DNA of 64,000 bases from Gammaproteobacteria bacterium. Lineage in GTDB: Bacteria > Pseudomonadota > Gammaproteobacteria > Pseudomonadales > Pseudohongiellaceae. Where the stretch lies: the NCBI GenBank assembly GCA_009922595.1, contig RFVC01000004.1, forward strand, positions 1 to 64,000, read 5' to 3'. Position numbers and translations under genes: made by a program. Of this stretch, positions 18,984 through 41,963 are shown piece after piece; the stretch's first letter is position 1, and each line of letters starts with the position of its first letter. Under the pieces are notes generated by a model. It ran no database searches and had not been told where the DNA came from. It saw only the letters and a list, made by a program, of their open reading frames with translations.

Positions 18984-19164
18984 GACAAAATTCCAAGGAA
19001 TAGAACTGCATCGAAGGTAGTCGGAATCCGAAGGATTTTCAAGTAATTACCCTGCATCACGCGCTGGCTTTTCCAAAATAAAGACATAATTTCTACCTGA
19101 GTATTAATTCGGGCTAGAATCCTTTTCTCACGTGGATTTCATAACAATTAGAAAGGGAAAGAAC

Positions 19165-20832
19165 ATGCCGGGGTCGAAACAATTAAAAGAAGCGATAAGC
19201 TGTATTGTGGTTTTGCTGCTCGCTGCCTGCTCGGGACAAGAAGCGCCATCCGCTGCAGCAGTAACAGAAGTCAGCGAACCAGAGCAGCCCAATATCCTGC
19301 TCATAGTTGCCGATGACCTGGGTTATGCGGACCTTGGTTTTTACGGCAGCGAAATCCCAACTCCCAACCTGGATATGCTGGCCGCCAACGGCATGCTGCT
19401 GACGGATTTCTACACCAGTATGACCTGCGGCCCCACCCGCTCTATGCTCATGTCCGGTACCGACAACCACATGGCCGGGGTTGGTGTGCAAAGTGCCCCC
19501 TCCCACCCTGACCATATTGGTGATCCCAACTACCTGGGCTACCTGAGCTTTCGCGTGGCCAGCCTGGCTGAACTGATGACCGAGGCAGGCTATAACACTT
19601 ACATGACCGGCAAGTGGCATCTAGGTATGGACGTGGAGAACGGCGCCCATGCCAGGGGCTTCAAGAAAAATTTCATCTCACTGGATGGGGCAGCTCATCT
19701 GGGTCCCTGGGACTGGCGCGGCCCGCAGAATGCCAATTACCGTGACGGCGACGAGATGGTGCAAGTCAATGACGACTGGTACACGGTGCGCGATTACACA
19801 GGCAAAATGGTCGAGTATATCGGGGAAGACAGGGACGAGGACAAACCCTTCTTTGCCTTCCTGGCCTACACAACACCGCACTGGCCCCTGCAGGCTCCTG
19901 CCGATGTCATTGCCAACTTTGACGGCGTTTACGACGACGGCTACGAGGCTACCTACCTGCGCCGCCTGGAGCGGATGAAAGAACTCGGCCATGTACCCGA
20001 AGAGGCTGAGCCGATGCCCATGGATATTTTTAGTCCACGCTGGGAAGATCTCGATTCTGAGGAAAAAGCCTATTCCGCCAAGCGCATGGAAATTTATGCT
20101 GCAATGGTCAGCGAACTGGACAAGTATGTCGGCCAGGTGGTGGATTATCTGAAAGAGATCGGTGAATTCGACAACACCTTCATCATGTTTATGTCTGACA
20201 ACGGTGCTGAATCGGCACGTCTTGACCTGTCACCCCGTTACCAGGAGTTCATTACGGGAGGACAGTACGATCAAAGCCTAGAAAACCTGGGCAGTGCCAC
20301 CTCCTATGTCATGTACGGACGCAACTGGGCCACCGTCAGTGAGACACGCTTTCGGCGGCACAAGGCTACCGGATTCGAAGGCGGCATTCATGTGCCTGCC
20401 TTTGTGCATTTCCCTTCCATGGTTGAACCCGGCACTCGCACCGATGGCTTTGGCACAGTGATGGATGTTTTACCAACCTTCCTGGCTATTGCCGGCACTC
20501 AACATCCCGGCACCAGCTTTCAGGGACGCGAAGTTGTGCCAATCAAGGGCAAATCACTGCTGCCCATGCTCACCGGTGAAACGGAAGAAATTCATGATGG
20601 CTACACCGGCTGGGAACTGAATGGTCATCGCACGATTCGGGAAGGGGAATGGAAAATAGTCTGGGACCGCGCAGCAGGTGAGGATGCTAAATGGCTCTTG
20701 TTTAATATTGAAGAAGACCCGATGGAGCAAAAAGACCTTGCCACGGAACTACCGGATAAACTGGCTCAGATGGTTGGTCTGTGGGAGCGCTACGAAGAGG
20801 AAAACGGCGTGATCTATGTCTACCCGGAATAA
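19165..20832 (+). CDS. Type I sulfatase, lipoprotein
   Basis: A 555-residue sulfatase. ATG 19165 is chosen over GTG 19132 because AGGGA stands about 6 nt before it. The signal peptide ends in L-L-A-A-C, so the mature protein should be lipid-anchored. The metal-binding A-D-D-L-G-Y-A-D is near residue 50. The formylglycine site C-G-P-T-R starts at Cys88, followed by G-K-W-H-L-G near 148 and M-S-D-N-G-A-E. The enzyme should hydrolyse sulfate esters of sugars or other organics. The next gene encodes the maturase that converts Cys88 to formylglycine and overlaps this one by 17 nt. Confidence 0.92.
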   Translation: MPGSKQLKEAISCIVVLLLAACSGQEAPSAAAVTEVSEPEQPNILLIVADDLGYADLGFYGSEIPTPNLDMLAANGMLLTDFYTSMTCGPTRSMLMSGTDNHMAGVGVQSAPSHPDHIGDPNYLGYLSFRVASLAELMTEAGYNTYMTGKWHLGMDVENGAHARGFKKNFISLDGAAHLGPWDWRGPQNANYRDGDEMVQVNDDWYTVRDYTGKMVEYIGEDRDEDKPFFAFLAYTTPHWPLQAPADVIANFDGVYDDGYEATYLRRLERMKELGHVPEEAEPMPMDIFSPRWEDLDSEEKAYSAKRMEIYAAMVSELDKYVGQVVDYLKEIGEFDNTFIMFMSDNGAESARLDLSPRYQEFITGGQYDQSLENLGSATSYVMYGRNWATVSETRFRRHKATGFEGGIHVPAFVHFPSMVEPGTRTDGFGTVMDVLPTFLAIAGTQHPGTSFQGREVVPIKGKSLLPMLTGETEEIHDGYTGWELNGHRTIREGEWKIVWDRAAGEDAKWLLFNIEEDPMEQKDLATELPDKLAQMVGLWERYEEENGVIYVYPE

Positions 20833-21826
20833 AATCATTTTAGCTGTCCTTGCCCCTGCAGGAATAACAATAGCAGCTGCCCTGGGGTGGATCGGATACC
20901 AGGCCTCTTTGCCCGCTCAGGATATGAGCGCTTTTAAGTTCCAATGCTACGAGGAATCACATCTAGCTGAAGCTGGCCGCAACGAGGAATATCCAGGCAT
21001 GGTATGGGTGCCGGGTGGCACATTTACCATGGGTGCAGAGGGTACCTATTTTGAAGAAGGTCCAGCCCACGAGGAAAGTGTGGCGGGATTCTGGATGGCA
21101 AGACATGAAGTCACCAATGCTGAGTTTGCCGAATTTGTCGAAGACACTGGTTATAAGACACTTGCTGAGCGCGGCATAGAAAATCCTAACGGTCCGCCTC
21201 TTCCTGGTTCTGCCGTATTTACTCCACATGTCAGCAATGAGCAGATAAACCCTTTCGCCAGTTGGTGGTCATTCATGGAAGGTGCCAGCTGGTTAGAACC
21301 CAAGGGTCCCGGTTCAGACATTGAAGGTCTGGAAAATCACCCGGTTGTACATATCGCCTTTGAGGATGCACAGGCTTATGCACAGTGGAAAGGTCACGCT
21401 CTTCCCACCGAGGCCCAGTTCGAATTTGCCGCCCAGAGTAGCCAGATGCGCAGCGAGGATGGTACCTACCTCTCAAACACCTGGCAGGGGCTTTTCCCTT
21501 TACAGCACTATCCCATGGACGGCTTTATTGGCACCGCCCCTGTTGAATGTTTTGGTGCAAATAAATATGGCCTTTATGACCTAATTGGAAATGTCTGGGA
21601 ATGGACGCAGTCACCCTATTTTCTGAACCACTCGTTTCCTGACCAGGAAAAATATCCCCAGGGGTATGATCCAAACCAGCCTGGCGAACCAGTCGCCGTC
21701 ATCAAGGGCGGCTCCTATTTATGCGCACCAAACTACTGCATGCGGTACCGGCCTGAGGCTCGGCAGGCGCAGAGCAAGGGGCTAGGCACCTCGCATATTG
21801 GTTTCAGAACAACAATAAATCCCTAA
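20816..21826 (+). CDS. Formylglycine-generating enzyme (sulfatase maturase), membrane-anchored
   Basis: A 336-residue SUMF1-domain protein. The N-terminus has a hydrophobic helix (residues 7-27) that should act as a signal or anchor, so the domain should face the periplasm. The domain begins M-V-W-V-P-G-G-T-F-T-M-G, has W-M-A-R-H-E-V-T-N and N-V-W-E-W-T, and ends with G-G-S-Y-L-C-A-P-N-Y-C, containing the redox pair Cys303 and Cys308 that in known enzymes bind copper and oxidise the substrate Cys with O2. ATG 20816 overlaps the sulfatase end by 17 nt, so the pair is translationally coupled and maturation probably occurs outside the cytoplasm. Confidence 0.88.
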   Translation: MSTRNKIILAVLAPAGITIAAALGWIGYQASLPAQDMSAFKFQCYEESHLAEAGRNEEYPGMVWVPGGTFTMGAEGTYFEEGPAHEESVAGFWMARHEVTNAEFAEFVEDTGYKTLAERGIENPNGPPLPGSAVFTPHVSNEQINPFASWWSFMEGASWLEPKGPGSDIEGLENHPVVHIAFEDAQAYAQWKGHALPTEAQFEFAAQSSQMRSEDGTYLSNTWQGLFPLQHYPMDGFIGTAPVECFGANKYGLYDLIGNVWEWTQSPYFLNHSFPDQEKYPQGYDPNQPGEPVAVIKGGSYLCAPNYCMRYRPEARQAQSKGLGTSHIGFRTTINP

Positions 21827-21907: not shown

Positions 21908-24499
21908 ATGGCAAAACGTGTTTACCTTTTTAATGAGGGTCAAAAGGAAGACCGCGACCTACTTGGGGGCAAGGGAGCAAACCTTTGCGAGATGACCAAC
22001 CTCGGTCTTCCCGTTCCTTTTGGCTTTATTATCACTACCAACACTTGCCGTGAATATTTCGAGAACGGCAACAAGCTGCCCAACCGGCTGGAACAAGAAT
22101 ACCGGGTTGCCCTCGACCTTGTTGAACAGAAAATGGGCTGTGATTTTGGTGATTCCAAAAATCCTCTCCTCCTCTCTGTCCGTTCAGGCGCCCCCGTATC
22201 AATGCCCGGCATGATGGATACTGTGCTGAACTTAGGCCTAAACGATGAAATTGTTCAGGGACTGGCCACCAAAACCGGCAATGCCAGATTTGCATACGAT
22301 AGCTACCGGCGTTTTATCCAGATGTTTGCCAACGTAGTGCTAGACGCAGATGGAGACCGCTTCGAAGAGACCATCGATGACTATAAAAAGTCGCATGGCA
22401 AAACACTTGATATAGAAATGGAAGCCAATGACTGGCAGCGTGTAATTGATCAATTTAAAAACCTGGTCGACATCCCCCAGGATCCATTTCAGCAGTTACT
22501 AATGGCCGTTGAGGCGGTCTTCAAGTCCTGGCATACCCCCCGTGCCCATGTTTATAGGGAAATGAACAACATTCCCGAGTCACTCGGAACTGCGGTCAAT
22601 GTACAGGCCATGGTGTATGGCAATTTCAGTGACGATTCCGGCTCTGGAGTCGCCTTTACCCGCAACCCATCCTCAGGGGAAAAGCGGTTTTTTGGCGAGA
22701 TTCTTTTTAATGCCGCAGGCGAAGACGTCGTGGCGGGAATTCGCACACCCGAACCCATTGATGCGCTGAAAGAAAGGATGCCGAAAGTGTACGACCAGCT
22801 TTTTGAAACCCAGGCCATGCTGGAAAAACATTACCGCGATATGCAGGACATCGAGTTCACCATACAAGAAGGCCGTATTTTTATTCTTCAGACACGCAGC
22901 GGAAAACGCACCGGACGTGCCTCCGTAAAAATTGCTGTAGAGATGGTCAAGGAAGGTCTTATCACCGACAAGGAAGCTTTGCTAAGAGTCTCACCCGATC
23001 ATGTTGAAGCTTTCCTGCATCCCACGGTGGACCCAACAGCAAAGAAAGATATCGTTGCATCTGGCCTTCCTGCAAGCCCCGGGGGTGCAACTGGGTCGGT
23101 GGTCTTTTCGGCAGACGAAGCCGTGGAAGTTGCTGCTAGCGGCATAAAGGTGATCCTTGTACGCAAGGAAACCACACCGGAGGATATTCATGGCATGAAG
23201 GTAGCGGAGGGAATACTGACCGAGCTCGGCGGCATGACGTCGCATGCAGCCGTGGTGGCCCGTGGTATGGGGGTGACCGCTATAACCGGCTGCCACACGC
23301 TGAATATAGATTATAAAAATGGGACGGCGACCACTGAAGAAGGCACCGTGATCAAGCGCGGTGATGTAATCACCATTGATGGCCTTGCCGGCGAGGTCAT
23401 GTTAGGCGACATTCCTAAAACCCTGGCCTCGTCCAGCGACGACTTTCAAACCCTGCTGTCATGGGCTGACAAGTACCGCAAACTCCAGGTACGGGCGAAC
23501 GCTGAAACACCGGAAGATGCCGCCAAGGCCATAGAGTTGGGTGCGGAAGGAATAGGGCTCTGCCGCACGGAGCACATGTTTTTTGACGCAAGCCGCATCA
23601 ATATCATGCGCGGCATGATCCTATCGGAAAACAAGGATGAACGGGAGTCTTACCTGACGCAGCTGGAAAAATTCCAGCATGACGATTTCCTAGAGTTGTT
23701 CAGAATCATGGACGGCAAACCGATTACCATTCGTTTGCTTGATCCACCGCTGCATGAATTCCTGCCTCATACAGAAGAAGATATCGAGGCCCTAGGCAAA
23801 CAGATCAACAAGTCCCTGGAGAAAATCCGTCAGGCCATTGATGACCTTGTCGAGGTTAATCCAATGCTTGGCCTGCGTGGCTGCCGCCTCTCTATTGTGC
23901 ATCCTGAAATCACTGAGATGCAGGTGCGCGCCATAACGAGTGCCGCAGTGGCAGCCACTGAAGCTGGCATAAACCCCATGCCCGAAATCATGATTCCCTT
24001 GGTCGTTAATGTGCGCGAAATCCGCATGATTACAGACATCATAGAGCATGGCATACATTCCATTATGTCCGAGAAAAGCCTCTCTTTTCGCTACAAGATC
24101 GGCACTATGATGGAGACGCCGAGAGCCTGCCTGGGCGCAGGACGAATTGCCAAAGACGTGGAATTCATGAGTTTCGGAACGAATGACCTGACACAAATGA
24201 CCTATGGCTTCTCCCGTGATGATGCCGCCAAGTTCATTCCCGAGTATCTAGATAAAAAACTGTTTGAGACCGATCCCTTTGTATCGCTCGATGAACGTGC
24301 CGTTGGCAAACTGCTTCGACTCGCAATCCGCGATTCTCGCGAAAAAAAGAAAGGTATCAAGTATGGAATCTGCGGCGAACACGGCGGCGATCCGCGCTCA
24401 GTCAAATATTTCCATGAGATCGGTCTGGATTATGTCAGCTGTAGTCCTTACCGCATTCCCATTGCCCGGATAGCGGCCGCACAGGCCAACGTCGAGTAA
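21908..24499 (+). CDS. ppdK: Pyruvate, phosphate dikinase
   Basis: An 863-residue enzyme that interconverts pyruvate + ATP + Pi with PEP + AMP + PPi. The N-terminal nucleotide-binding half starts G-G-K-G-A-N-L and holds G-V-A-F-T-R-N-P-S-S-G. The swivelling domain carries the phospho-acceptor His446 in G-G-M-T-S-H-A-A-V. The C-terminal TIM barrel has L-C-R-T-E-H-M-F and G-T-N-D-L-T-Q-M-T-Y-G. Length matches the family. A PEP-forming role suits a cell fed on amino acids or pyruvate. The SDR gene follows at 5 nt. The second, split dikinase 5 kb downstream lacks the barrel. Confidence 0.95.
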   Translation: MAKRVYLFNEGQKEDRDLLGGKGANLCEMTNLGLPVPFGFIITTNTCREYFENGNKLPNRLEQEYRVALDLVEQKMGCDFGDSKNPLLLSVRSGAPVSMPGMMDTVLNLGLNDEIVQGLATKTGNARFAYDSYRRFIQMFANVVLDADGDRFEETIDDYKKSHGKTLDIEMEANDWQRVIDQFKNLVDIPQDPFQQLLMAVEAVFKSWHTPRAHVYREMNNIPESLGTAVNVQAMVYGNFSDDSGSGVAFTRNPSSGEKRFFGEILFNAAGEDVVAGIRTPEPIDALKERMPKVYDQLFETQAMLEKHYRDMQDIEFTIQEGRIFILQTRSGKRTGRASVKIAVEMVKEGLITDKEALLRVSPDHVEAFLHPTVDPTAKKDIVASGLPASPGGATGSVVFSADEAVEVAASGIKVILVRKETTPEDIHGMKVAEGILTELGGMTSHAAVVARGMGVTAITGCHTLNIDYKNGTATTEEGTVIKRGDVITIDGLAGEVMLGDIPKTLASSSDDFQTLLSWADKYRKLQVRANAETPEDAAKAIELGAEGIGLCRTEHMFFDASRINIMRGMILSENKDERESYLTQLEKFQHDDFLELFRIMDGKPITIRLLDPPLHEFLPHTEEDIEALGKQINKSLEKIRQAIDDLVEVNPMLGLRGCRLSIVHPEITEMQVRAITSAAVAATEAGINPMPEIMIPLVVNVREIRMITDIIEHGIHSIMSEKSLSFRYKIGTMMETPRACLGAGRIAKDVEFMSFGTNDLTQMTYGFSRDDAAKFIPEYLDKKLFETDPFVSLDERAVGKLLRLAIRDSREKKKGIKYGICGEHGGDPRSVKYFHEIGLDYVSCSPYRIPIARIAAAQANVE

Positions 24500-29115: not shown

Positions 29116-30930
29116 ATGAGCGAGTCAAAGAATCCTTTTCCTTTACCCAGCGAAATAGAAAGCGTTCCAGGCGCCGAGAACTGGGGTGATATGTACGCTT
29201 ACTACACCAGGGTACAACCGGAGGATGATGATCGCTTCTGGTTTTACAACTCCATGCACTTTTCAGAGCCCATGTCGGCCTTCGACATGATTACTGCTGA
29301 AGCCGCCTATTACGCCATGGGGGCATATGTGACACGCGTCTTTGCATTTCCTACCGCGATGGGCATTGACTACAGATGCATAAACGGTCGCATCTATATT
29401 ACGGCAAATACTGTTCAGGACCCTGAAGAAATTGAAAAACGCCTGGCCATCTTCCAGGAGCGTGCCGGGCACTACTATGAAAACTGGAACGACATCTACG
29501 GGCAGTGGGAAAAACGCATGGGCGATCTCATCAAGGAGATGACCGCCATCAAGATACCAGAACTGCCTAACATTGAAGATGAAGCCGTGGTTAAGGAAGC
29601 CCGGGGGATTGCTCAGAACCATTACGTCCGCCAGGCCTACAACGAGGTCATAGAAAAATACCAGATCATGTGGCAGCACCACTTCGAAATGCTAATGCTC
29701 GGTTACGGTGCCTACGTGGTGTTCTTCCAGTTTTGCAAGCAGGCTTTTCCTGAAATCACTGACCAGACTGTTGCCAGGATGGTGGCCGGCATTGATGTGC
29801 TGATGTTCCGTCCGGATGACGAGTTGAAGAAGTTGGCCAAGTTGGCTGTTGAGCTTGGTATTGACGATGCCTTTACCGATGACGGCAATCCCGATGTGAT
29901 TCTTGCGGCCGTGGAAGCCAAAGGTGATGCCGGCAAACAATGGATGGATGCGCTGGCCGAATCGCGCGATCCCTGGTTCAACATTTCTATCGGAGACGGT
30001 TTTTATCACTTCGAACGCAGCTGGAACGATGATCTCTCGGTGCCTCTTTCCGCACTGCCCCACTACATAGGACTGATCAAGAAGGGTGAAAACCTGGAAC
30101 GCCCCACCGAAGAACTAAAAGCAGAACGCGAACGCATCATTAGCGAATACCGCGAACTGCTCGGCACCGATGAAGAAAAAGCGGCTTTTGACCAGATGCT
30201 CGCTGTCAGTCACCTGGTATTTCCGTATGTTGAGGATCACAAGTTCTACTGTGAACACTGGCTCACAACCTGCTTCTTCAACAAGATACGCGAGTTCGGC
30301 CAACTGCTTGCCCGTCATGACATGCTCGATGATGCCGAGGATATATTCCACCTGCACCACACCGAGGTCGACCTAACACTGGGTAATCTGATGAATGCCT
30401 GGGCAGCCGGCTCCAAGCCAGTAAACCAGGATTACTGGAAACCCATCGTGAAAGAACGCCGCCGCATGATCGAAGTTCTCAAGGAGTGGCAGGCACCGCC
30501 GGCTATAGGTCCTATGCCGGAGAATATAGAAGACCCGGCCCTGCAGATGCTCTGGGGCATCACCACTGAAACGCTACACACCTGGGCAGCCCCGGATATC
30601 GAGGACGACAGCCAGCTCAAGGGCTATGCCGCCTCACCTGGTATTGTTGAGGGTACCGCCAAGGTGTTGCGCTCCATTAATGACTTTGGGGAAATAAGTG
30701 AAGGCGATATTCTTGTTGCCCCCGTCACACATCCGAGTTGGAGCCCGCTCTTCAGCAAGATCAGTGCAGCCGTCTCCGATATTGGAGGCACCATGTCGCA
30801 CATGGCAATCGTAGCCCGAGAATATGGGATGCCGGCTGTTGTAGGTACCGGCCAGGCTACCAAGCGCATTCAGAATGGTCAGAAACTGCGAGTAGATGGC
30901 GACCGCGGCGTGGTCACGATACTTGAGTAA
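29116..30930 (+). CDS. PEP-utilising-enzyme mobile-domain protein (phenylphosphate-synthase alpha-like subunit)
   Basis: A 604-residue protein. ATG 29116 is preferred over TTG 29101 because GGGAG lies 8 nt before it. Residues 1-490 are a helical region with no motif I can name. The last 100 residues are the swivelling phosphohistidine domain of dikinases, with His562 in G-G-T-M-S-H-M-A-I-V-A-R. The ATP-grasp part is a separate gene 113 nt downstream, and the PEP/pyruvate barrel is absent. Sizes of about 69 and 38 kDa for the two proteins match the two main subunits of phenylphosphate synthase. It probably transfers a phosphoryl group to an organic acceptor that is not pyruvate. Confidence 0.8.
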   Translation: MSESKNPFPLPSEIESVPGAENWGDMYAYYTRVQPEDDDRFWFYNSMHFSEPMSAFDMITAEAAYYAMGAYVTRVFAFPTAMGIDYRCINGRIYITANTVQDPEEIEKRLAIFQERAGHYYENWNDIYGQWEKRMGDLIKEMTAIKIPELPNIEDEAVVKEARGIAQNHYVRQAYNEVIEKYQIMWQHHFEMLMLGYGAYVVFFQFCKQAFPEITDQTVARMVAGIDVLMFRPDDELKKLAKLAVELGIDDAFTDDGNPDVILAAVEAKGDAGKQWMDALAESRDPWFNISIGDGFYHFERSWNDDLSVPLSALPHYIGLIKKGENLERPTEELKAERERIISEYRELLGTDEEKAAFDQMLAVSHLVFPYVEDHKFYCEHWLTTCFFNKIREFGQLLARHDMLDDAEDIFHLHHTEVDLTLGNLMNAWAAGSKPVNQDYWKPIVKERRRMIEVLKEWQAPPAIGPMPENIEDPALQMLWGITTETLHTWAAPDIEDDSQLKGYAASPGIVEGTAKVLRSINDFGEISEGDILVAPVTHPSWSPLFSKISAAVSDIGGTMSHMAIVAREYGMPAVVGTGQATKRIQNGQKLRVDGDRGVVTILE

Positions 30931-31043
30931 ATATCCTTAAAGTATTCGTTTTAGCTAATATTGAAAGTGCAAATTTAAAAAACCAACCATTACGACCCTT
31001 AAATTTTTTGCTTTCAAGTTTTAATATTTAGCAGTCAACACAT

Positions 31044-32084
31044 ATGACATCAGACAGTTTCATTCTACCTTTTGGTACCATCTCACTTGATGATCGCCCT
31101 CGCGTTGGCGGCAAGGGCGGCAGCCTGGGGGAATTAACCAGTGCCCTGATCCCGGTTCCCCCGGGATTTGTTGTAACCACTGATGCCTTTAGTGCTTTCC
31201 TGGATGCCCTGGACAAGGAACATGGCATCCGCAACCAAATTGCCAAACTTGATCCAGAGGATGTTGCCACACTGAACCAGACCACCAGCGACATTCGCAC
31301 ACTGGTACAGCAGGCCCCTACCCCAAAGGAAATAGCATCCGTAATTGCCGAGGCATATTCCAAACTCGGCGATAACATTCCTGTGGCGGTGCGCTCGAGT
31401 GCCACAAGTGAAGATAGCGAAGAGGCCAGCTTTGCCGGCCTGCAAGACACCTATCTCTGGCAAAAAGGTGAAGCACAGCTTATGGAGGCCCTGAAACTTT
31501 GCTGGGCCAGCCTCTACAATGCCGAATCTGTTGCTTATCGCCTGAAACTTGATATACCGGAGTATCAACTGGCCATGGCCGTTGTGATACAGACCATGGT
31601 GAATTCACGCTGTTCCGGCGTCATGTTCACCCGCAGTCCAACCACGGGCGATAAGTCTGTGATTGCCATTGAAGGCAGCTGGGGGCTAGGCTCTAGCATC
31701 GTCAGTGGTGAAGTAACACCAGACAAATTCGTCATCAACAAGATCACTAGTGAAATTACCAGCCGCGATGTGGCAAGCAAGGATATCGAACACGTGCCCG
31801 ATGAAAAAGGCGGCATCATGGAAATGCCTGTCGATGAAACACGCAAGAAAACCCAGTGTGTGAGCGACGATGAGCTGAAAGAACTATCCTCTATTGCCCG
31901 CCGTATAGAAAAACTTTACGGCATGCCGCAAGATATCGAGTGGGCAATTGACCAAGAGGGCAAGGTCATGGTGCTGCAAAGCCGCCCAGAAACAGTCTGG
32001 GCTGCCAAGGAGAAGGCCCCGGTCGCAAAACCTACGGCAAAAGCCTTTGATCATATTTTCAATGTACTCGGGGGGCAGAAGTGA
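31044..32084 (+). CDS. ATP-binding subunit of a split dikinase (PPDK/PEP-synthase N-domain)
   Basis: A 346-residue protein with the nucleotide-binding domain of the PEP-synthase family: G-G-K-G-G-S-L-G-E-L at the N-terminus, A-V-R-S-S-A-T-S-E-D near residue 115, G-V-M-F-T-R-S-P near 193, and the C-terminal D-I-E-W-A-I and V-L-Q-S-R-P-E. It lacks the phosphohistidine domain, which is in the gene before it. It should hydrolyse ATP to AMP and Pi while phosphorylating His562 of the partner. Its stop overlaps the GTG start of the biotin carrier gene (GTGA), so they are translationally coupled. This ties the kinase to the carboxylase. Confidence 0.85.
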   Translation: MTSDSFILPFGTISLDDRPRVGGKGGSLGELTSALIPVPPGFVVTTDAFSAFLDALDKEHGIRNQIAKLDPEDVATLNQTTSDIRTLVQQAPTPKEIASVIAEAYSKLGDNIPVAVRSSATSEDSEEASFAGLQDTYLWQKGEAQLMEALKLCWASLYNAESVAYRLKLDIPEYQLAMAVVIQTMVNSRCSGVMFTRSPTTGDKSVIAIEGSWGLGSSIVSGEVTPDKFVINKITSEITSRDVASKDIEHVPDEKGGIMEMPVDETRKKTQCVSDDELKELSSIARRIEKLYGMPQDIEWAIDQEGKVMVLQSRPETVWAAKEKAPVAKPTAKAFDHIFNVLGGQK

Positions 32085-32542
32085 GTCTTAGCCATGAAGA
32101 CGTGCAGGAAATTCTACGCCTGCTTGAAGATACCGACTACGAAGAACTGGACCTAGAGACCGACCGGTTCACCCTGAGACTTAAGCGAGGCGAAGCTGGC
32201 TGGACGCAGGAACAAGCTACAAAAGGCAAGAGCCAACAGGTAAATATCACTTCAATCGATAGCGATAATGCAATCGAAGAGCCGCAACCTATAGAGGAAG
32301 GACTCCTAGATATCAGGGCACCGATGGTGGGTACGTTTTACCGTTCACCAAAACCGGGAGCCGATCCTTTTATTGAAATTGGAAGTGCAGTCCAAGAAGA
32401 TTCGGTAATTGCCATCATTGAAGTAATGAAGCTGATGAATTCAATTCCTGCGGGCCAGAACGGAGAAGTAGCAGAAATTCATGCCGAGGATGCCCAGTTT
32501 GTTGAAAAGGGGCAACTCCTGATGCGGGTCAGGCGTTCCTGA
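32081..32542 (+). CDS. Biotin carboxyl carrier protein
   Basis: A 153-residue carrier, the length of AccB. The N-terminal part resembles the AccB leader (I-L-R-L-L-E-D-T-D-Y). A linker of about 40 residues follows, then a biotinyl domain, with biotin-acceptor Lys117 in E-V-M-K-L-M-N where A or S is more usual before M. The GTG start overlaps the preceding stop by 4 nt, and the biotin carboxylase gene begins 8 nt after it. It may serve the cluster's carboxyltransferase or acetyl-CoA carboxylase; the gene order favours the former. Confidence 0.88.
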   Translation: MSLSHEDVQEILRLLEDTDYEELDLETDRFTLRLKRGEAGWTQEQATKGKSQQVNITSIDSDNAIEEPQPIEEGLLDIRAPMVGTFYRSPKPGADPFIEIGSAVQEDSVIAIIEVMKLMNSIPAGQNGEVAEIHAEDAQFVEKGQLLMRVRRS

Positions 32543-32550
32543 TAGCCCCT

Positions 32551-33900
32551 ATGAATATCAACCGGTTATTAATCGCCAATCGTGGCGAGATCGCTGTTCG
32601 CATAATTCGCACCTGCCAGCTGCTTGGTATTGAAACTGTGCTGGTAGCCTCCGAGGCTGACTTGGATTCCGTTCCTGCTAGGATGGCTGATAATTTGATC
32701 AACATCGGGCCTGCGCCCACACAGCAGAGCTATCTAAATATCGACAATGTCATTCAAGCAGCAAAACAGTCGCAGGCTGATGCTGTACATCCCGGATACG
32801 GCTTCCTGTCTGAGAACTCTGCTTTTGCATCGGCCTGCATTGAAAATGACATCATTTTTATTGGTCCCACCATCGAACAGCTTGATGCTATCGGCGATAA
32901 ACTAAAAGCGCGCAGCAATGCCCTGGCCGCCGACCTGCCTGTTGTCGCGGGCGGATCAGTGGAAACATTGGCTCAAGCCGTCAAAATAGCTTCAGATATC
33001 AGTTACCCGATACTCATCAAGGCGGTCAGTGGCGGCGGCGGTAAAGGAATGAAAGTGGTTCGCAGTGAGCCCGAACTCGAGGAAGCGATCACGCTGGCAC
33101 AGGCCGAGGCAGAAAATGCATTTGGCGATGACCGCATTTACCTCGAATGTTATGTAGAAACAGGTCGTCATGTTGAAGTCCAGATTCTTGCGGACGGCAG
33201 TACAGCTGTTCACCTTGGTACGCGTGACTGTTCCATACAGAGACGCTACCAAAAACTGGTCGAGGAAGCGCCCGCCCCGGCACTTGAAGATTCCCTAAGA
33301 AACAGAATCGAACAGGCTGCTGTGGATTTTGCCAGGCACCTTTCGTATCGGGGAGCCGGTACAGTCGAGTTCCTAGTGGATGTTGGCAGAAACAGTTTTT
33401 ATTTTCTTGAGATGAATGCCCGTATTCAGGTGGAGCACCCGGTCACCGAGGCCATCACAGGCTTTGATCTTGTCGCCCAGCAGATCCGCGTTGCCGAAGG
33501 ACGCCCCCTGGGAATGACCCAGGAGGACATCCAGTTTTACGGCCATGCGATTGAATGCCGCCTAAATGCAGAAGATCCCAGCAACAATTTCATACCCTCA
33601 CCGGGAACTATTACAAGGGCGCTCTTTCCGGCCGGCGAGGGAATTCGCATGGACAGCCATATCGAAACCGGAAGCAAAGTACCCCCCTTTTATGATTCGC
33701 TGCTTGGTAAGCTGATTGTTTGGGGCAAGACACGGAATGAGGCTGTCTCGCGACTGCAGCAGGCACTATCTGCATGTCACTTAGAAGGCGTGGCCACCAA
33801 TGTCGATCTCCACGCTTTAATACTGAGTAATGCCTCGTTCAGGGACGGCGGTGTTGATACGCAGTTCTTGCCTGCCCTGCTGGAGACAGACAATGGCTGA
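32551..33900 (+). CDS. Biotin carboxylase
   Basis: A 449-residue ATP-grasp enzyme, the length of AccC, that carboxylates biotin with bicarbonate and ATP. It shows I-A-N-R-G-E-I-A-V-R-I-I-R, Y-G-F-L-S-E-N, the glycine-rich S-G-G-G-G-K-G-M-K loop, E-E-A-P-A-P, and E-M-N-A-R-I-Q-V-E-H-P-V-T-E. It lies 8 nt after the carrier gene, and its stop overlaps the start of the carboxyltransferase by 8 nt (ATGGCTGA). It is therefore probably a dedicated subunit of this carboxylase, though a role with acetyl-CoA carboxylase cannot be excluded. Confidence 0.92.
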   Translation: MNINRLLIANRGEIAVRIIRTCQLLGIETVLVASEADLDSVPARMADNLINIGPAPTQQSYLNIDNVIQAAKQSQADAVHPGYGFLSENSAFASACIENDIIFIGPTIEQLDAIGDKLKARSNALAADLPVVAGGSVETLAQAVKIASDISYPILIKAVSGGGGKGMKVVRSEPELEEAITLAQAEAENAFGDDRIYLECYVETGRHVEVQILADGSTAVHLGTRDCSIQRRYQKLVEEAPAPALEDSLRNRIEQAAVDFARHLSYRGAGTVEFLVDVGRNSFYFLEMNARIQVEHPVTEAITGFDLVAQQIRVAEGRPLGMTQEDIQFYGHAIECRLNAEDPSNNFIPSPGTITRALFPAGEGIRMDSHIETGSKVPPFYDSLLGKLIVWGKTRNEAVSRLQQALSACHLEGVATNVDLHALILSNASFRDGGVDTQFLPALLETDNG

Positions 33901-35380
33901 AATCAAACTGGTTGATGTCAGTATCCGCGACGGCAATCAAAGCCTGTGGAGCATGACCGGTCTGGGCACAAACCAGATCATGCAGGCTGCCCCTATTATG
34001 GAGCGCGTTGGTTTTCGTGCTATTGATTTCACCTCAAGCACCCACATGTCCATGGCCATTCGTTCCCACCAGGATGATCCCTGGGAACGCATCCGCCTGA
34101 TGAAGCGCGCCCTGCCCGGCGTGCCGCTGCAATTCATCTCCACCGGATTTCGGTTTATCTCATGGGAGACGGCTGATCATGACTTTATGCGGCTTGCATA
34201 CCGCACACTGATGAAAAACGGCATAGGTCGCTTTGTCTTACTTGACCCCATGCATGACATGGATGCCCTGATGCTCGTAGCACGCATCGTAAAGGAGGAA
34301 GGCGATGCCGAGAACATGGCCGCGCTCACCTATACACTTAGTGACGTCCATAATGATGCGTTCTATGCTAACTGTGCAAGACAGATAGCAGCCTCAGGGG
34401 ACTTCGATCTGCTCTATATCAAAGACCCTTCCGGGCTCCTCACACCGGAACGCGCCCGCACGCTGATCCCGGCGGTAAAAAAAGAAATCGGTGATATGCC
34501 GCTGGAATTGCATTCCCACTGCACCATCGGTCTGTCACAGTTCAATTACATAGTAGGCGCTGAACTGGGCATCTCTGCCCTACACGTGGCAATGGGGCCG
34601 CTGGCCCATGGATCCTCGCTGCCCTGTGCTTCCCAGACTATCGCCAACTTAAAAACACACGGTTTCGAGGTAGATGCCGACGAAAAGGCAATCAAGGAGC
34701 TGGAAGATTTTTACTTTGCGCTGGCACGCGCGGAAGGTCTGCCGATCGGACAACCGCAATCCTATGACGCTTCCTTCCTGAGACATCAGATTGCGGGCGG
34801 TGTGATGACCACGACCCGGCGTCAGCTGGCTGAACTGAACCTTGAGCACAAATTTGATGAGGTTATGGCAGAGGTGGAACGAGTGCGCGCCGAGCTTGGT
34901 TCTCCAATCATGGTCACGCCCTTCCCGCAGATTGTCACGACCCAGGCCATGTTTAACGTAATGGGGGATGAGCGTTACCAGCAGATTCCTGACCAAGCAA
35001 TTCGTTACATTCTTGGCCGCTTTGGCAGGCCTACAGCCCCAGTAGATCAGAATGTGCTTGACCGGATCATGTCATTACCTAGGACCAAAGAAATTGAAGC
35101 TGAACCAATCATGATGACACTGGAAGAGCGTAGGGGCAGATTTCCCAGGTCCATGAGTGACGAGGAATTCCTGCTGCGTGCCGTGATGCCGCCGGAAATG
35201 ATAGACGGTATGCAGTCGCGCTCCCCTCACCAGCTTCATTACAATCCAGATGCAGCATCAGTGATTAACTTACTAAGAGGGATGAAAGAGCGCAGCACGC
35301 CCAGCTACTTTGAACTGAAACAAAGCGACTTCAGACTCGCCCTAGGTAAGAAAGCCATTGCCCGTAGCAAAGAACTATAA
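33893..35380 (+). CDS. Pyruvate-carboxylase-type carboxyltransferase subunit with altered active site
   Basis: A 495-residue DRE-TIM-type protein. ATG 33893 is used because the longer frame from 33830 lies inside the biotin carboxylase gene. It holds the metal site Asp13 in R-D-G-N-Q-S, where pyruvate carboxylases and oxaloacetate decarboxylases have R-D-A-H-Q-S. The probable carbamylated Lys177 is in I-K-D-P-S-G (usually K-D-M-A-G), and metal ligands His207 and His209 are in H-S-H-C-T-I-G (usually H-T-H-D-T-x-G). The C-terminal conserved carboxylase domain is present, the biotinyl domain is not. The fold and metal site are kept while the substrate-facing residues differ, so the acceptor is probably not pyruvate. 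Confidence 0.82.
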   Translation: MAEIKLVDVSIRDGNQSLWSMTGLGTNQIMQAAPIMERVGFRAIDFTSSTHMSMAIRSHQDDPWERIRLMKRALPGVPLQFISTGFRFISWETADHDFMRLAYRTLMKNGIGRFVLLDPMHDMDALMLVARIVKEEGDAENMAALTYTLSDVHNDAFYANCARQIAASGDFDLLYIKDPSGLLTPERARTLIPAVKKEIGDMPLELHSHCTIGLSQFNYIVGAELGISALHVAMGPLAHGSSLPCASQTIANLKTHGFEVDADEKAIKELEDFYFALARAEGLPIGQPQSYDASFLRHQIAGGVMTTTRRQLAELNLEHKFDEVMAEVERVRAELGSPIMVTPFPQIVTTQAMFNVMGDERYQQIPDQAIRYILGRFGRPTAPVDQNVLDRIMSLPRTKEIEAEPIMMTLEERRGRFPRSMSDEEFLLRAVMPPEMIDGMQSRSPHQLHYNPDAASVINLLRGMKERSTPSYFELKQSDFRLALGKKAIARSKEL

Positions 35381-35395
35381 CCAGGAAACAGTAGA

Positions 35396-36238
35396 ATGAA
35401 CCAGGAAGCTATCGAGCGCTTTAAATCGATCAAGGGTTTCGTCTTTGACATGGACGGCACGCTTATTCTTGGCGACAAGAAGAATAACAACATGAAAGTG
35501 CTGCCAGGAGCACCTGACTTTATAAACCTGCTGATTGAGAACGATATCCCCTATGTTGTGATGACTAATGGTACTGCCCGGTCACCCAGCGCCTATGTTG
35601 GTGTGCTAAGTGAAGCGGGCATTCCTATGAGCGAACATACAATGATGACGCCAAGCAGCGTGGCTGCAACCTACCTTCGGGATAACGGCTACAAGCGCAT
35701 CATGGTTCTGGGTTGTTCCGGTGTCTATGAACCCCTGCAGGACCTTGGTCTTGAGGTTGTGCTCTCTAATGAGGAAAACCCGGGCGTAGTAGATGCTGTC
35801 TATATAGGCTGGTATCGCGAATTCGGCTTCAAGGACATTGAAAATGCCTGGTTGGCATGCCGCGATGGTGCCGAGCTCTTTACCGCTTCCGATGTCCCCT
35901 TCTTTGCCTCCGCAAACGGCCCCGCCATCGGCACATCCTGCGCCCTGGCTGCTGCTCTGAAACCGCTAACCGGCAAGGATGCCGTTGTGCTTGGCAAACC
36001 CTCTGCTAATGCCATCGAAGGCGCTGCACGCCACCTTGGTCTGGCAGTAAATGAGATTGCCGTTGTGGGTGATGATGCCGACTTAGAAGTACCCATGGCC
36101 AAGGATAACGGCGCCATGGCCATCTATGTTCATACGGGTACCGGCGGTCCCAATGCCTTTGAAGAACGCCCCGAGACCACCTGGCCCCATATTTCAGTCG
36201 CCAATGTCGGCGAACTGATAAACTTGTGGAATGCCTGA
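35396..36238 (+). CDS. HAD-IIA family phosphatase (NagD-like)
   Basis: A 280-residue HAD hydrolase. Motif I is V-F-D-M-D-G-T with nucleophile Asp18 and acid Asp20. Motif II is V-M-T-N-G-T. A NagD-type cap follows, then motif III Lys in L-G-K-P-S-A-N-A and motif IV G-D-D-A-D. It lies 15 nt after the carboxyltransferase, and its end overlaps the GT9 start by 8 nt. It may remove the phosphate from the product of the kinase-carboxylase steps, or serve the glycosyltransferase. It could also be a general phosphatase. Confidence 0.82.
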   Translation: MNQEAIERFKSIKGFVFDMDGTLILGDKKNNNMKVLPGAPDFINLLIENDIPYVVMTNGTARSPSAYVGVLSEAGIPMSEHTMMTPSSVAATYLRDNGYKRIMVLGCSGVYEPLQDLGLEVVLSNEENPGVVDAVYIGWYREFGFKDIENAWLACRDGAELFTASDVPFFASANGPAIGTSCALAAALKPLTGKDAVVLGKPSANAIEGAARHLGLAVNEIAVVGDDADLEVPMAKDNGAMAIYVHTGTGGPNAFEERPETTWPHISVANVGELINLWNA

Positions 36239-40402: not shown

Positions 40403-41963
40403 TTGAAGACTGCATTCCTGGGCAAGATCCTATCCGGCCCATTTACCATCCCATCAGGCATTGTTACCTGTGCCGCGCCGATCATTCAGAAATTCTTTGA
40501 CGAAATACCCGAAGTCGGAGTGCTCACCACCAAGAGTATCTGCCTCGAACCTAGGCTGGGTTACCGTGAGCCCATCCTGCATCAGTATTCACCCGGCTGC
40601 TTTGTTAATGCCGTAGGCCTTACAAACCCTGGCGCCAGAAAATCAGCTGAACTTCTGGGACAGCTTGATATTCCTAAAGACCGCTTTCTGCTTATTTCAA
40701 TTTTTGGTGGCTCCATCGAGGAATACGTGGAAGTGGCAAAAATACTGGCCCCGGTAGGTGACGGCCTAGAGCTGAATCTCTCCTGCCCTCATGCCAAGGG
40801 CTACGGTATGGCCATGGGGCAGGACCCCGACATGGTCCGGGATATCACGGCAGCCGTGAAAGCCGCCGTTGACGTACCCGTGGTCCCGAAACTAACGCCA
40901 AACGTGCCGAATTTCAGGGAAATTGCCGAGGCCGCAATAGCCGGCGGCGCTGATGCCCTGTGCGCCATCAATACGGTAGGCCCGGAAAAGAAGGCACAAC
41001 ATGGACATCCCGTGCTTTACAACGAGGTAGGGGGTGTATCAGGCAAAGAGATCCTGCCTCGAGCCCTGGAATGCATGCATGACCTGTCCGGTCTTGATAT
41101 TTCAATCATTGGCTGCGGGGGCGTATCAAGTGCCGCCAATGTCAGGAAAATGCAGACTCAAGGCGCCGATGTTATTGGTATTGGATCAGCCCTGGTAGGG
41201 ATGACCACCGATGAAATTGCCCATTATTTCAAGGTTCTGACTAAGGACCTTGAGGACAGCACAGAGAATGCCGAAGCGCTGGTACAGTACGATGTCGACA
41301 TGGATTTTTCACCGGTAACACTAGTGAAGAACGAGCGAATCTGCGATGACATTTGCATACTCACCTTTGACAGCAAGGTCCCTGTCAAAGCGGGGGAATT
41401 TATATTTCTCTGGGTTCCGGGACTTGGCGAGAAGCCTTTCTCTGCCCTGGCCGACGATCCTTTTTCCCTGGCCGTGATTAATCTAGGCCAGTTTACCGAG
41501 GCCTTGATGAGTCTTGAGCCAGGCACCGAAGCCTACGTGCGGGGCCCGCACGGCATCGCCATTTCACCCCCTGTGTCACCAACTACTTTAAATCTATCTT
41601 TTAGATTTTCTTTTTACTTTCCTTTTAGCTTTTTATATCGATGAGTGTGAAGCAGTTGCGCCTACCCATATTGCGACCGATGACGGCAGCGAGGGTTTCC
41701 ATGGAGTGGTGACTGAATTGCTGAGAGAGAGGCTCGAGGAAATGGATCAGGCAGAACTTGATAACCTGGTCTTTTATAACTGTGGACCGGCTCCCATGGT
41801 CCACGCTGCAGTTAAAGTAGAAAAAGAGTTCTGCAAGCCAGGCCAGATATACAATGCCATCGACTATATGACCAAATGCGGAGTCGGCATCTGTGGTGCC
41901 TGCAACTCTCCCGATGGCCGCCGGCTCTGTGTCGACGGTCCGTTCCTTGTCGAGGAATCCTGA
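40403..41963 (+). pseudogene. Dihydroorotate dehydrogenase fused to a PyrK-type electron-transfer subunit, disrupted
   Basis: Residues 1-300 are a class 1B PyrD: T-K-S-I-C-L-E-P-R, F-V-N-A-V-G-L, E-L-N-L-S-C-P-H and I-I-G-C-G-G-V. From about 310 a PyrK-type FAD domain starts and runs to G-P-H-G-I. The frame is then lost in a T-rich stretch and stops at 41644. The right frame resumes at 41640 (D-E-C-E-A-V-A-P) and ends with the 2Fe-2S cluster motif C-G-V-G-I-C-G-A-C. Some 70-90 residues, including the NAD-binding part, are missing. An ORF of 12 codons at 40363-40401 also hints at a start lesion. It may be a real pseudogene or an assembly error. Confidence 0.7.
41575..41640. other. T-rich replacement segment inside the pyrDK gene
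   Basis: About 60 bases are nearly all T and A, with runs such as CTTTTAGATTTTCTTTTTAC. They do not resemble the flanking coding sequence, which is about half GC. The segment stands where the NAD-binding domain of PyrK should be, and the frame changes across it. It shows no inverted repeat or target duplication that I can see, so an insertion sequence is unlikely. Confidence 0.45.

Follow-up and report, generated by a model that had tools for sequence, protein, structure and literature searches.

We analysed a stretch of 64,000 nucleotides (the window; positions 1 to 64,000 of contig RFVC01000004.1, assembly GCA_009922595.1) from a gammaproteobacterium of the family Pseudohongiellaceae. Six genes at positions 29116-36238 of the plus strand most probably form an hpeHICBAD operon (acv type) with the function of the Hpe pathway for phenolic ketones. 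The first two encode the subunits of a dikinase. The alpha subunit is of the HpeH/AcvA type (29116..30930, 604 residues) and consists of a substrate-binding domain plus a swivel (phosphohistidine) domain carrying the motif SDIGGTMSH with His562. The beta subunit is an ATP-grasp protein of the HpeI/AcvB type (31044..32084, 346 residues), which matched PPDK_N (PF01326) with 361 bits. They are followed by an HpeC-type biotin carboxyl carrier protein (BCCP; 32081..32542, 153 residues) with a Biotin_lipoyl domain (PF00364) and the biotinylation motif EVMKLMN, and by the two enzymes assigned to a phospho-hydroxyphenylethanone carboxylase, the biotin carboxylase (BC; 32551..33900, 449 residues; Biotin_carb_N, CPSase_L_D2 and Biotin_carb_C) and the carboxyltransferase (CT; 33893..35380, 495 residues; PYC_OADA). 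The last gene encodes an HpeD-type phosphatase of the HAD-IIA (NagD-like) family (35396..36238, 280 residues; Hydrolase_6, PF13344). The sequence-only reading made earlier of this DNA had described a split dikinase without the phosphoenolpyruvate (PEP)/pyruvate barrel, a biotin carrier, a biotin carboxylase, a divergent carboxyltransferase and a HAD phosphatase, and domain scans confirmed all of these, with the six genes at the place that it gave, on the plus strand.

The same reading had placed the genes in one coupled run, which held from HpeI to CT. The BCCP gene overlaps that of HpeI by 4 nt, BCCP and BC are separated by 8 nt, and BC and CT overlap by 8 nt; a longer start of the CT, upstream at 33830, is possible. 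The phosphatase gene starts 15 nt past the end of the CT gene, and its 3' end is overlapped by a glycosyltransferase-9 gene. The genes of HpeH and HpeI, in contrast, lie 113 nt apart and are thus adjacent without being tightly coupled.

The combination of kinase, biotin carboxylase and phosphatase, which the sequence-only reading did not know as a characterised pathway, is that of the Hpe/Acv pathway, characterised since 2022 (PMC9618137), and the operon is a genus-conserved member of this known pathway, not a new one. HpeHI of Rhodococcus rhodochrous GD02 phosphorylates the phenol of acetovanillone and 4-hydroxyacetophenone, the biotin-dependent HpeCBA carboxylates these ketones only in their phosphorylated form, converting one ATP to ADP per carboxylation, and HpeD dephosphorylates the carboxylated product (PMC9618137). 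HpeHI is a dikinase that forms AMP, and its H581Q mutant had no detectable activity (PMC12167813). The order of events proposed earlier for the window, phosphorylation and then carboxylation, was essentially right, in that a phenol is phosphorylated and a biotin enzyme carboxylates. It was imprecise in its mechanism: in the characterised system CO2 goes onto the acetyl carbon of the hydroxyphenyl methyl ketone (PMC9618137, PMC12167813, PMC13101465), while the phenol oxygen carries the phosphate, which is not lost in carboxylation and which the HAD enzyme removes later. Operons of GD02, Actinomadura macra and Sphingobium lignivorans SYK-6 are compared in PMC13101465, where the SYK-6 operon is described as a set of six genes that leaves the last two steps of the pathway to genes elsewhere, MarK is given as the single-component kinase at the start of the pathway in N. 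aromaticivorans, and kinase and carboxylase genes were clustered in just 52 of 836 cases.

The window operon shares with that of GD02 (hpeHICBADEF) the phosphohistidine motif and the order of the kinase alpha and beta subunits, BCCP, BC, CT and HAD phosphatase. It differs in that no hpeE or hpeF was seen beside the operon, its kinase belongs to another clade, and the nearest named relatives of its proteins are gammaproteobacterial metagenome-assembled genomes (MAGs), not Rhodococcus. The GD02 type was represented in our comparison by a plasmid of Rhodococcus JS3073 (L120), which encodes a near-copy of GD02 HpeI (9GOJ; E = 3.2e-232), preceded by the kinase alpha subunit and followed by BC, CT, HAD and an acetoacetate-CoA-ligase-type protein, in a row homologous to HpeH, HpeI, BC, CT and HAD of the window. 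The identities between the two were 46% for HpeH, 42.6% for HpeI, 48% for BC, 45% for CT and 33% for HAD; no BCCP match to the L120 set passed the filter. On a plasmid of R. leguminosarum BT01 (L122), HpeH, HpeI, BCCP, BC, CT and HAD occur in this order, with an acetoacetate-CoA ligase and an amidohydrolase after them. As far as the published descriptions allow comparison, the Acv operon of SYK-6 (acvABCDEF; PMC13101465, PMC13406360) likewise unites kinase, carboxylase and phosphatase in six genes and leaves the last two steps to other places in the genome, as the window operon appears to do, and XccBCA of Aromatoleum aromaticum EbN1, which acts on 4-hydroxyacetophenone, is a three-part biotin carboxylase homologous to HpeCBA and clustered with hpeHI homologues, differing in its anaerobic context (PMC9618137).

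The dikinase subunits

The domain scan of HpeH (in a 609-residue reading from 29101) returned PF00391 alone, at residues 533-603, with no PEP/pyruvate barrel. The protein scored 809.7 bits against NF006153 (cut-off 578), and kinases over the cut-off of the window HpeH model were rare, being found in 4 of 299 phylum-sampled genomes including this one. The motif of HpeH conforms to T/SxxGGxxxH, as defined in PMC12167813, and its His562 was invariant in all 30 alignment rows. An AlphaFold model built from a 28-row alignment had a mean pLDDT of 80.9 and a pTM of 0.83. In Foldseek, its top six PDB fold matches were all rifampin phosphotransferases (E = 2e-15 to 8e-13), with TM-scores by query length of just 0.39-0.58 and a large rmsd; a relation of HpeH to rifampin phosphotransferase was likewise reported in the Journal of Biological Chemistry (PMC12167813). 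The best solved chain for HpeI was 9GOJ (E = 6.8e-78), which is the HpeI structure of R. rhodochrous GD02 (PMC12167813). The only other PPDK_N matches in the genome belong to a complete PPDK gene at 21908-24499, 4.6 kb upstream of the operon; a link between the two was considered and rejected, this being a separate ordinary gene.

In a tree of 35 rows, the window HpeH fell in a 29-row clade (support 100/98) of kinases from CT-bearing loci, and its closest neighbours were gammaproteobacterial rows with identities of up to 84%. The rows behind this clade came from CT-bearing loci together with five named references, and the alignments and tree omit L042, where the extracted stretch ran into a stop. 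Outside the clade were the GD02-type HpeH, the Azoarcus KH32C kinase, two Rhodococcus kinases, which adjoin a P450 gene, and the Thermomicrobium and Natribaculum rows, mostly on long branches whose order the tree did not settle. Since the window kinase lies in a clade apart from the GD02-type HpeH, the identity of the substrate cannot be safely transferred from the latter.

The likeness of the dikinase to phenylphosphate synthase, pointed out in the sequence-only reading, is real. PpsAB is a two-subunit phenol dikinase of the same family as the window pair, the subunit sizes agree, and the kinase alpha subunit of Azoarcus KH32C, the neighbours of which are ppcB, ppcD, ppcA and ppcG, was 43% identical to the window HpeH. 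Were the window enzyme of this type, it would phosphorylate a phenol for carboxylation of the ring, and the biotin enzyme would be an unrelated neighbour. The carboxylase that accompanies PpsAB (Ppc), however, works on the ring and does not depend on biotin. A scan of 15 window proteins, which did not extend to the rest of the genome, showed no UbiD or ppc gene, and both kinase subunits were encoded in 29 of 83 CT loci, usually just upstream of the carboxylase. This conserved linkage to a biotin carboxylase already largely refutes the phenylphosphate-synthase explanation, which we regard as highly improbable.

The biotin-dependent carboxylase and the phosphatase

The BCCP scored slightly below the cut-off of the AccB equivalog (113.4 vs 115.2), and the BC scored above that of NF006367 (625 vs 597 bits) and below that of the accC equivalog (601 vs 626.5). 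The CT matched PYC_OADA and oadA-type models, as would be expected if it belonged to an ordinary anaplerotic pyruvate carboxylase or oxaloacetate decarboxylase lying beside an unrelated dikinase, yet it remained below every listed OadA or pyruvate carboxylase cut-off (nearest 285 vs 402). It was about 28-33% identical to the OadA-type proteins of relatives, against 73-89% within its own group, and the genome has a separate OadA-like gene (C241) with 28% identity to it. In the CT tree, 34 CT rows and 12 OadA rows were split on one branch with an SH-aLRT of 100 (by a quick method, no bootstrap), and the CT of the GD02-type L120 was on the same side as that of the window. The CT rows comprise the window and 33 others, 35 having been picked from 87 extracted and two (L061 and L112) dropped as identical copies; for the OadA rows, the longest open frame per locus was taken in 12 of the 18 loci that remained of 20 once L161 and L168, which had no anchor string, were set aside.

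The residues Arg13, Asp14, Gln17, Lys178, His208 and His210 were kept in 34/34 CT rows and 12/12 OadA rows; we take them to correspond to the metal-site residues R548, D549, Q552, K718, H747 and H749 of R. etli pyruvate carboxylase. Residue 85, in contrast, was Thr in 33 and Ser in one of the 34 CT rows, L120 also having Thr, and Arg in all 12 OadA rows, this Arg presumably being the alpha-keto-acid-binding R621 of the R. etli enzyme. The loss of Arg at this position fits a simple ketone as the substrate, and Thr for Arg at residue 85 is a candidate marker to separate these CTs from the OadA and pyruvate carboxylase proteins whose models they match. The sequence comparisons indicate that the CT is distinct from both and would, with BCCP and BC, make up the three-component biotin carboxylase of the Hpe/Acv pathway; the separate clade lies outside the ordinary oxaloacetate decarboxylases, a point on which the sequence-only reading had staked its proposal. 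An anaplerotic role beside an unrelated dikinase has, in our estimate, an almost negligible probability.

A more distant CT group (33-37% identity; matches H19-H27) was found on plasmids of Rhodococcus, Novosphingobium, Cnuibacter, Sulfitobacter, Caballeronia and Arthrobacter; its members are labelled carboxyltransferase, pyruvate carboxylase subunit B or hypothetical, or lack an annotation. As for nomenclature, Table 1 of PMC9618137 gives hpeB as the carboxyltransferase and hpeA as the biotin carboxylase; the masses quoted (HpeA 57.4 and HpeB 49.3 kDa) and the order of BC before CT in L120 fit the opposite assignment.

The phosphatase matched HAD-IIA-type models, none above its own cut-off, and was 33-45% identical to the HAD gene adjoining the carboxylase in L119-L122. 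In L040-L043 the phosphatase stays together with the glycosyltransferase, apart from the carboxylase. With the arrangement in L040-L049, membership of the HAD gene in the cluster is weaker than that of the other five genes.

Gene arrangement in related loci

The arrangement was examined in 83 loci, namely the best 80 of 395 relatives and three further loci, which were picked by similarity of their CT to the window group and many of which are cut by contig ends. By tblastn, CT was found in 83, BCCP in 79, BC in 77, HAD in 75, HpeI in 32 and HpeH in 29 of them; all six genes were present in 18 loci and the first five in 25. The recurrence of this arrangement across related loci is far beyond chance. 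In 46 loci, a UPF0261/Tm-1-like gene, which may encode a MarK-type single-component kinase, stood in place of HpeHI, and the two kinds never occurred together (0/83). HpeI alone was present in three loci and no kinase in five, four of which had less than 4.9 kb upstream.

Conservation in relatives, the absence of which would have refuted the proposal according to the sequence-only reading, was found at the genus level. Across 76 related genomes, CT spanning most of its length with 73-89% identity was present in nine besides the window's own; the CT occurred in 6/6 genomes of the same genus (own included; for one, G299, a stop codon was reported within the match) and in 4/8 genomes of the sister genus g161. 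Another g161 genome (G330) had a partial CT (57% over 143 residues), and the rest had OadA-type matches of about 30%, weak fragments or none.

In L035, L036 and L037 (G127, G131 and G155) and in L052, HpeH, HpeI, BCCP, CT and HAD were present with no BC match within the 12-18 kb examined, and BC may be supplied from elsewhere in these genomes. L045, from a record titled as a Klebsiella pneumoniae MAG, has a kinase and a CT that nest among uncultured gammaproteobacteria, so the label is probably wrong. The carboxylase is accompanied by a Tm-1-like gene on the plasmid pBAR1 of Sphingomonas bisphenolicum (L119), where BKACE and thioesterase genes are nearby, and on a plasmid of Pseudomonas putida YC-AE1 (L121), where an acetoacetate-CoA ligase and an amidohydrolase are nearby; the hosts of both are, we assume, bisphenol A degraders. 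A viral connection was dismissed, as none of the 17 stretches that matched a pattern in viral contigs encodes a relative.

Elsewhere in the window, a sulfatase is directly followed by a sulfatase-modifying factor homologue (19132-21826). At 40403-41963, a protein that resembles dihydroorotate dehydrogenase and has a PyrK-type start is immediately followed by a short frame resembling the rest of the electron-transfer part, and this gene may be split or broken.

Substrate and downstream pathway

The genome encodes a lower pathway for an aromatic product. PobA (4-hydroxybenzoate 3-monooxygenase) scored 638 bits against a cut-off of 538.7, which just one of 14 control genomes passed. About 7.5 kb downstream of pobA, on the same contig (C25), lie a LigB-like gene, which passed the cut-offs of class III extradiol dioxygenase subfamilies (best 444 vs 290), and a LigA-like gene below those of its models (best 116 vs 161). 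A gallate-dioxygenase-type gene is present on C233 (716 bits vs 412). A LigB-type match of at least 46% was found in 10/10 CT-bearing genomes, and some match in 29 of the 76. PobA exceeded its cut-off in 10/10 genomes with a full CT (own included) versus 12/66 others, G330 among the latter (Fisher test, 6.8e-7), a co-occurrence that rests on two genera and is uncorrected for shared ancestry, PobA being also found without CT. An acetoacetate-CoA-ligase-type gene on C158 is a candidate for HpeE, with 46% identity to the ligase of the Rhizobium cluster and 58% to the one that lies near the carboxylase of P. putida YC-AE1. The intradiol dioxygenase on C147 (L134:109-969) is related to catechol 1,2-dioxygenase and scored far below the model cut-offs (143 vs 392 bits).

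With PobA, the LigAB-type pair and the HpeE candidate in one genome, the predicted route leads from 4-hydroxyacetophenone via 4-hydroxybenzoate to protocatechuate. We infer the substrate, the way in which cleavage takes place and what the operon does physiologically in this organism; the reactions of the kinase, carboxylase and phosphatase would follow those that others have shown for homologues. HpeI would bind ATP, the beta-phosphate of which would move to His562 of HpeH, and this residue would swing across to phosphorylate the phenolic oxygen of a 4-hydroxyphenyl methyl ketone. BC would charge the biotin of the carrier, CT would add CO2 to the acetyl group to give 4-phospho-benzoylacetate, and the HAD enzyme would then take off the phosphate. 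The beta-keto acid would be activated by an acetoacetate-CoA-ligase-type enzyme encoded elsewhere and split by a hydrolase, or by a thiolase plus a thioesterase, to 4-hydroxybenzoate and acetyl-CoA, and PobA and the LigAB-type dioxygenase may carry 4-hydroxybenzoate on via protocatechuate. Carboxylation of an acetone-type enol phosphate was considered and discarded, as the literature matches listed gave no lead to it and the phenol-kinase family accounts for the genes.

Besides the narrow taxonomic base of the PobA association, several observations weigh against an Hpe-type operon acting on 4-hydroxyacetophenone. Neither hpeE nor hpeF was present among the 15 window proteins scanned; since the last steps of SYK-6 are described as lying elsewhere (PMC13101465), adjacent hpeE and hpeF are not required of the Acv type. 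In the whole genome, the sole match for HpeF was a weak Amidohydro_2 hit (E = 1.7e-5), and BKACE, which adjoins the carboxylase in L119, is absent, by which it was ruled out as the cleavage enzyme. The C158 ligase passed ordinary acetoacetate-CoA ligase models, as did the cluster ligases of L120 and L122, and may be simply such an enzyme or HpeE. The GD02-type HpeH is outside the window clade, and its placement relative to the phenylphosphate-synthase row was not settled by the tree. L043 had a match for HpeI and none for HpeH, the HAD gene of L040-L043 lies about 2-6 kb from CT with other genes in between, and in L044-L049 tblastn gave no HAD match in the locus.

Because HpeH shares only 46% identity with its GD02-type counterpart and belongs to another clade, the exact substrate can only be inferred. 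We favour 4-hydroxyacetophenone as the main substrate with modest confidence, acetovanillone being less likely. The same chemistry may instead serve chiefly another phenolic ketone, such as an acetosyringone-like compound, another hydroxylated acetophenone or a longer-chain aryl ketone, which we consider possible and clearly less probable. The low identities of HpeH and CT (45%) to the GD02-type proteins and their separate branches in both trees suggest such a shift, the published homologues AcvAB and HpeHI are reported to differ in substrate preference (PMC13101465), and the gallate-dioxygenase-type enzyme could serve a syringyl route. The presence of PobA in all 10 CT-bearing genomes, however, points to 4-hydroxybenzoate as the product. 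Two VanA_C-type oxygenases, rejected as vanillate demethylases, matched no vanillate model and reached only about 97-99 bits against a sterol-monooxygenase model (cut-off 600), which leaves O-demethylation of guaiacyl or syringyl compounds unsupported, LigM/DesA-type demethylases not having been tested.

It is conceivable, though rather unlikely, that the clade of the window operon makes up a separate branch of the phosphorylate-then-carboxylate strategy. In gammaproteobacteria with small genomes (about 2.6-3.4 Mb), this branch would be tuned to a phenolic ketone outside those so far tried with these enzymes and would supply a route of the 4-hydroxybenzoate/protocatechuate or gallate type; if so, the cleavage of the beta-keto acid would be a new solution. 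As an Hpe/Acv-type operon, the locus adds to the enzymes available for lignin valorisation. It brings to another genus a pathway for lignin-derived phenolic ketones that has been established by experiment but sampled sparsely, and in this genus the pathway is kept together with 4-hydroxybenzoate metabolism.

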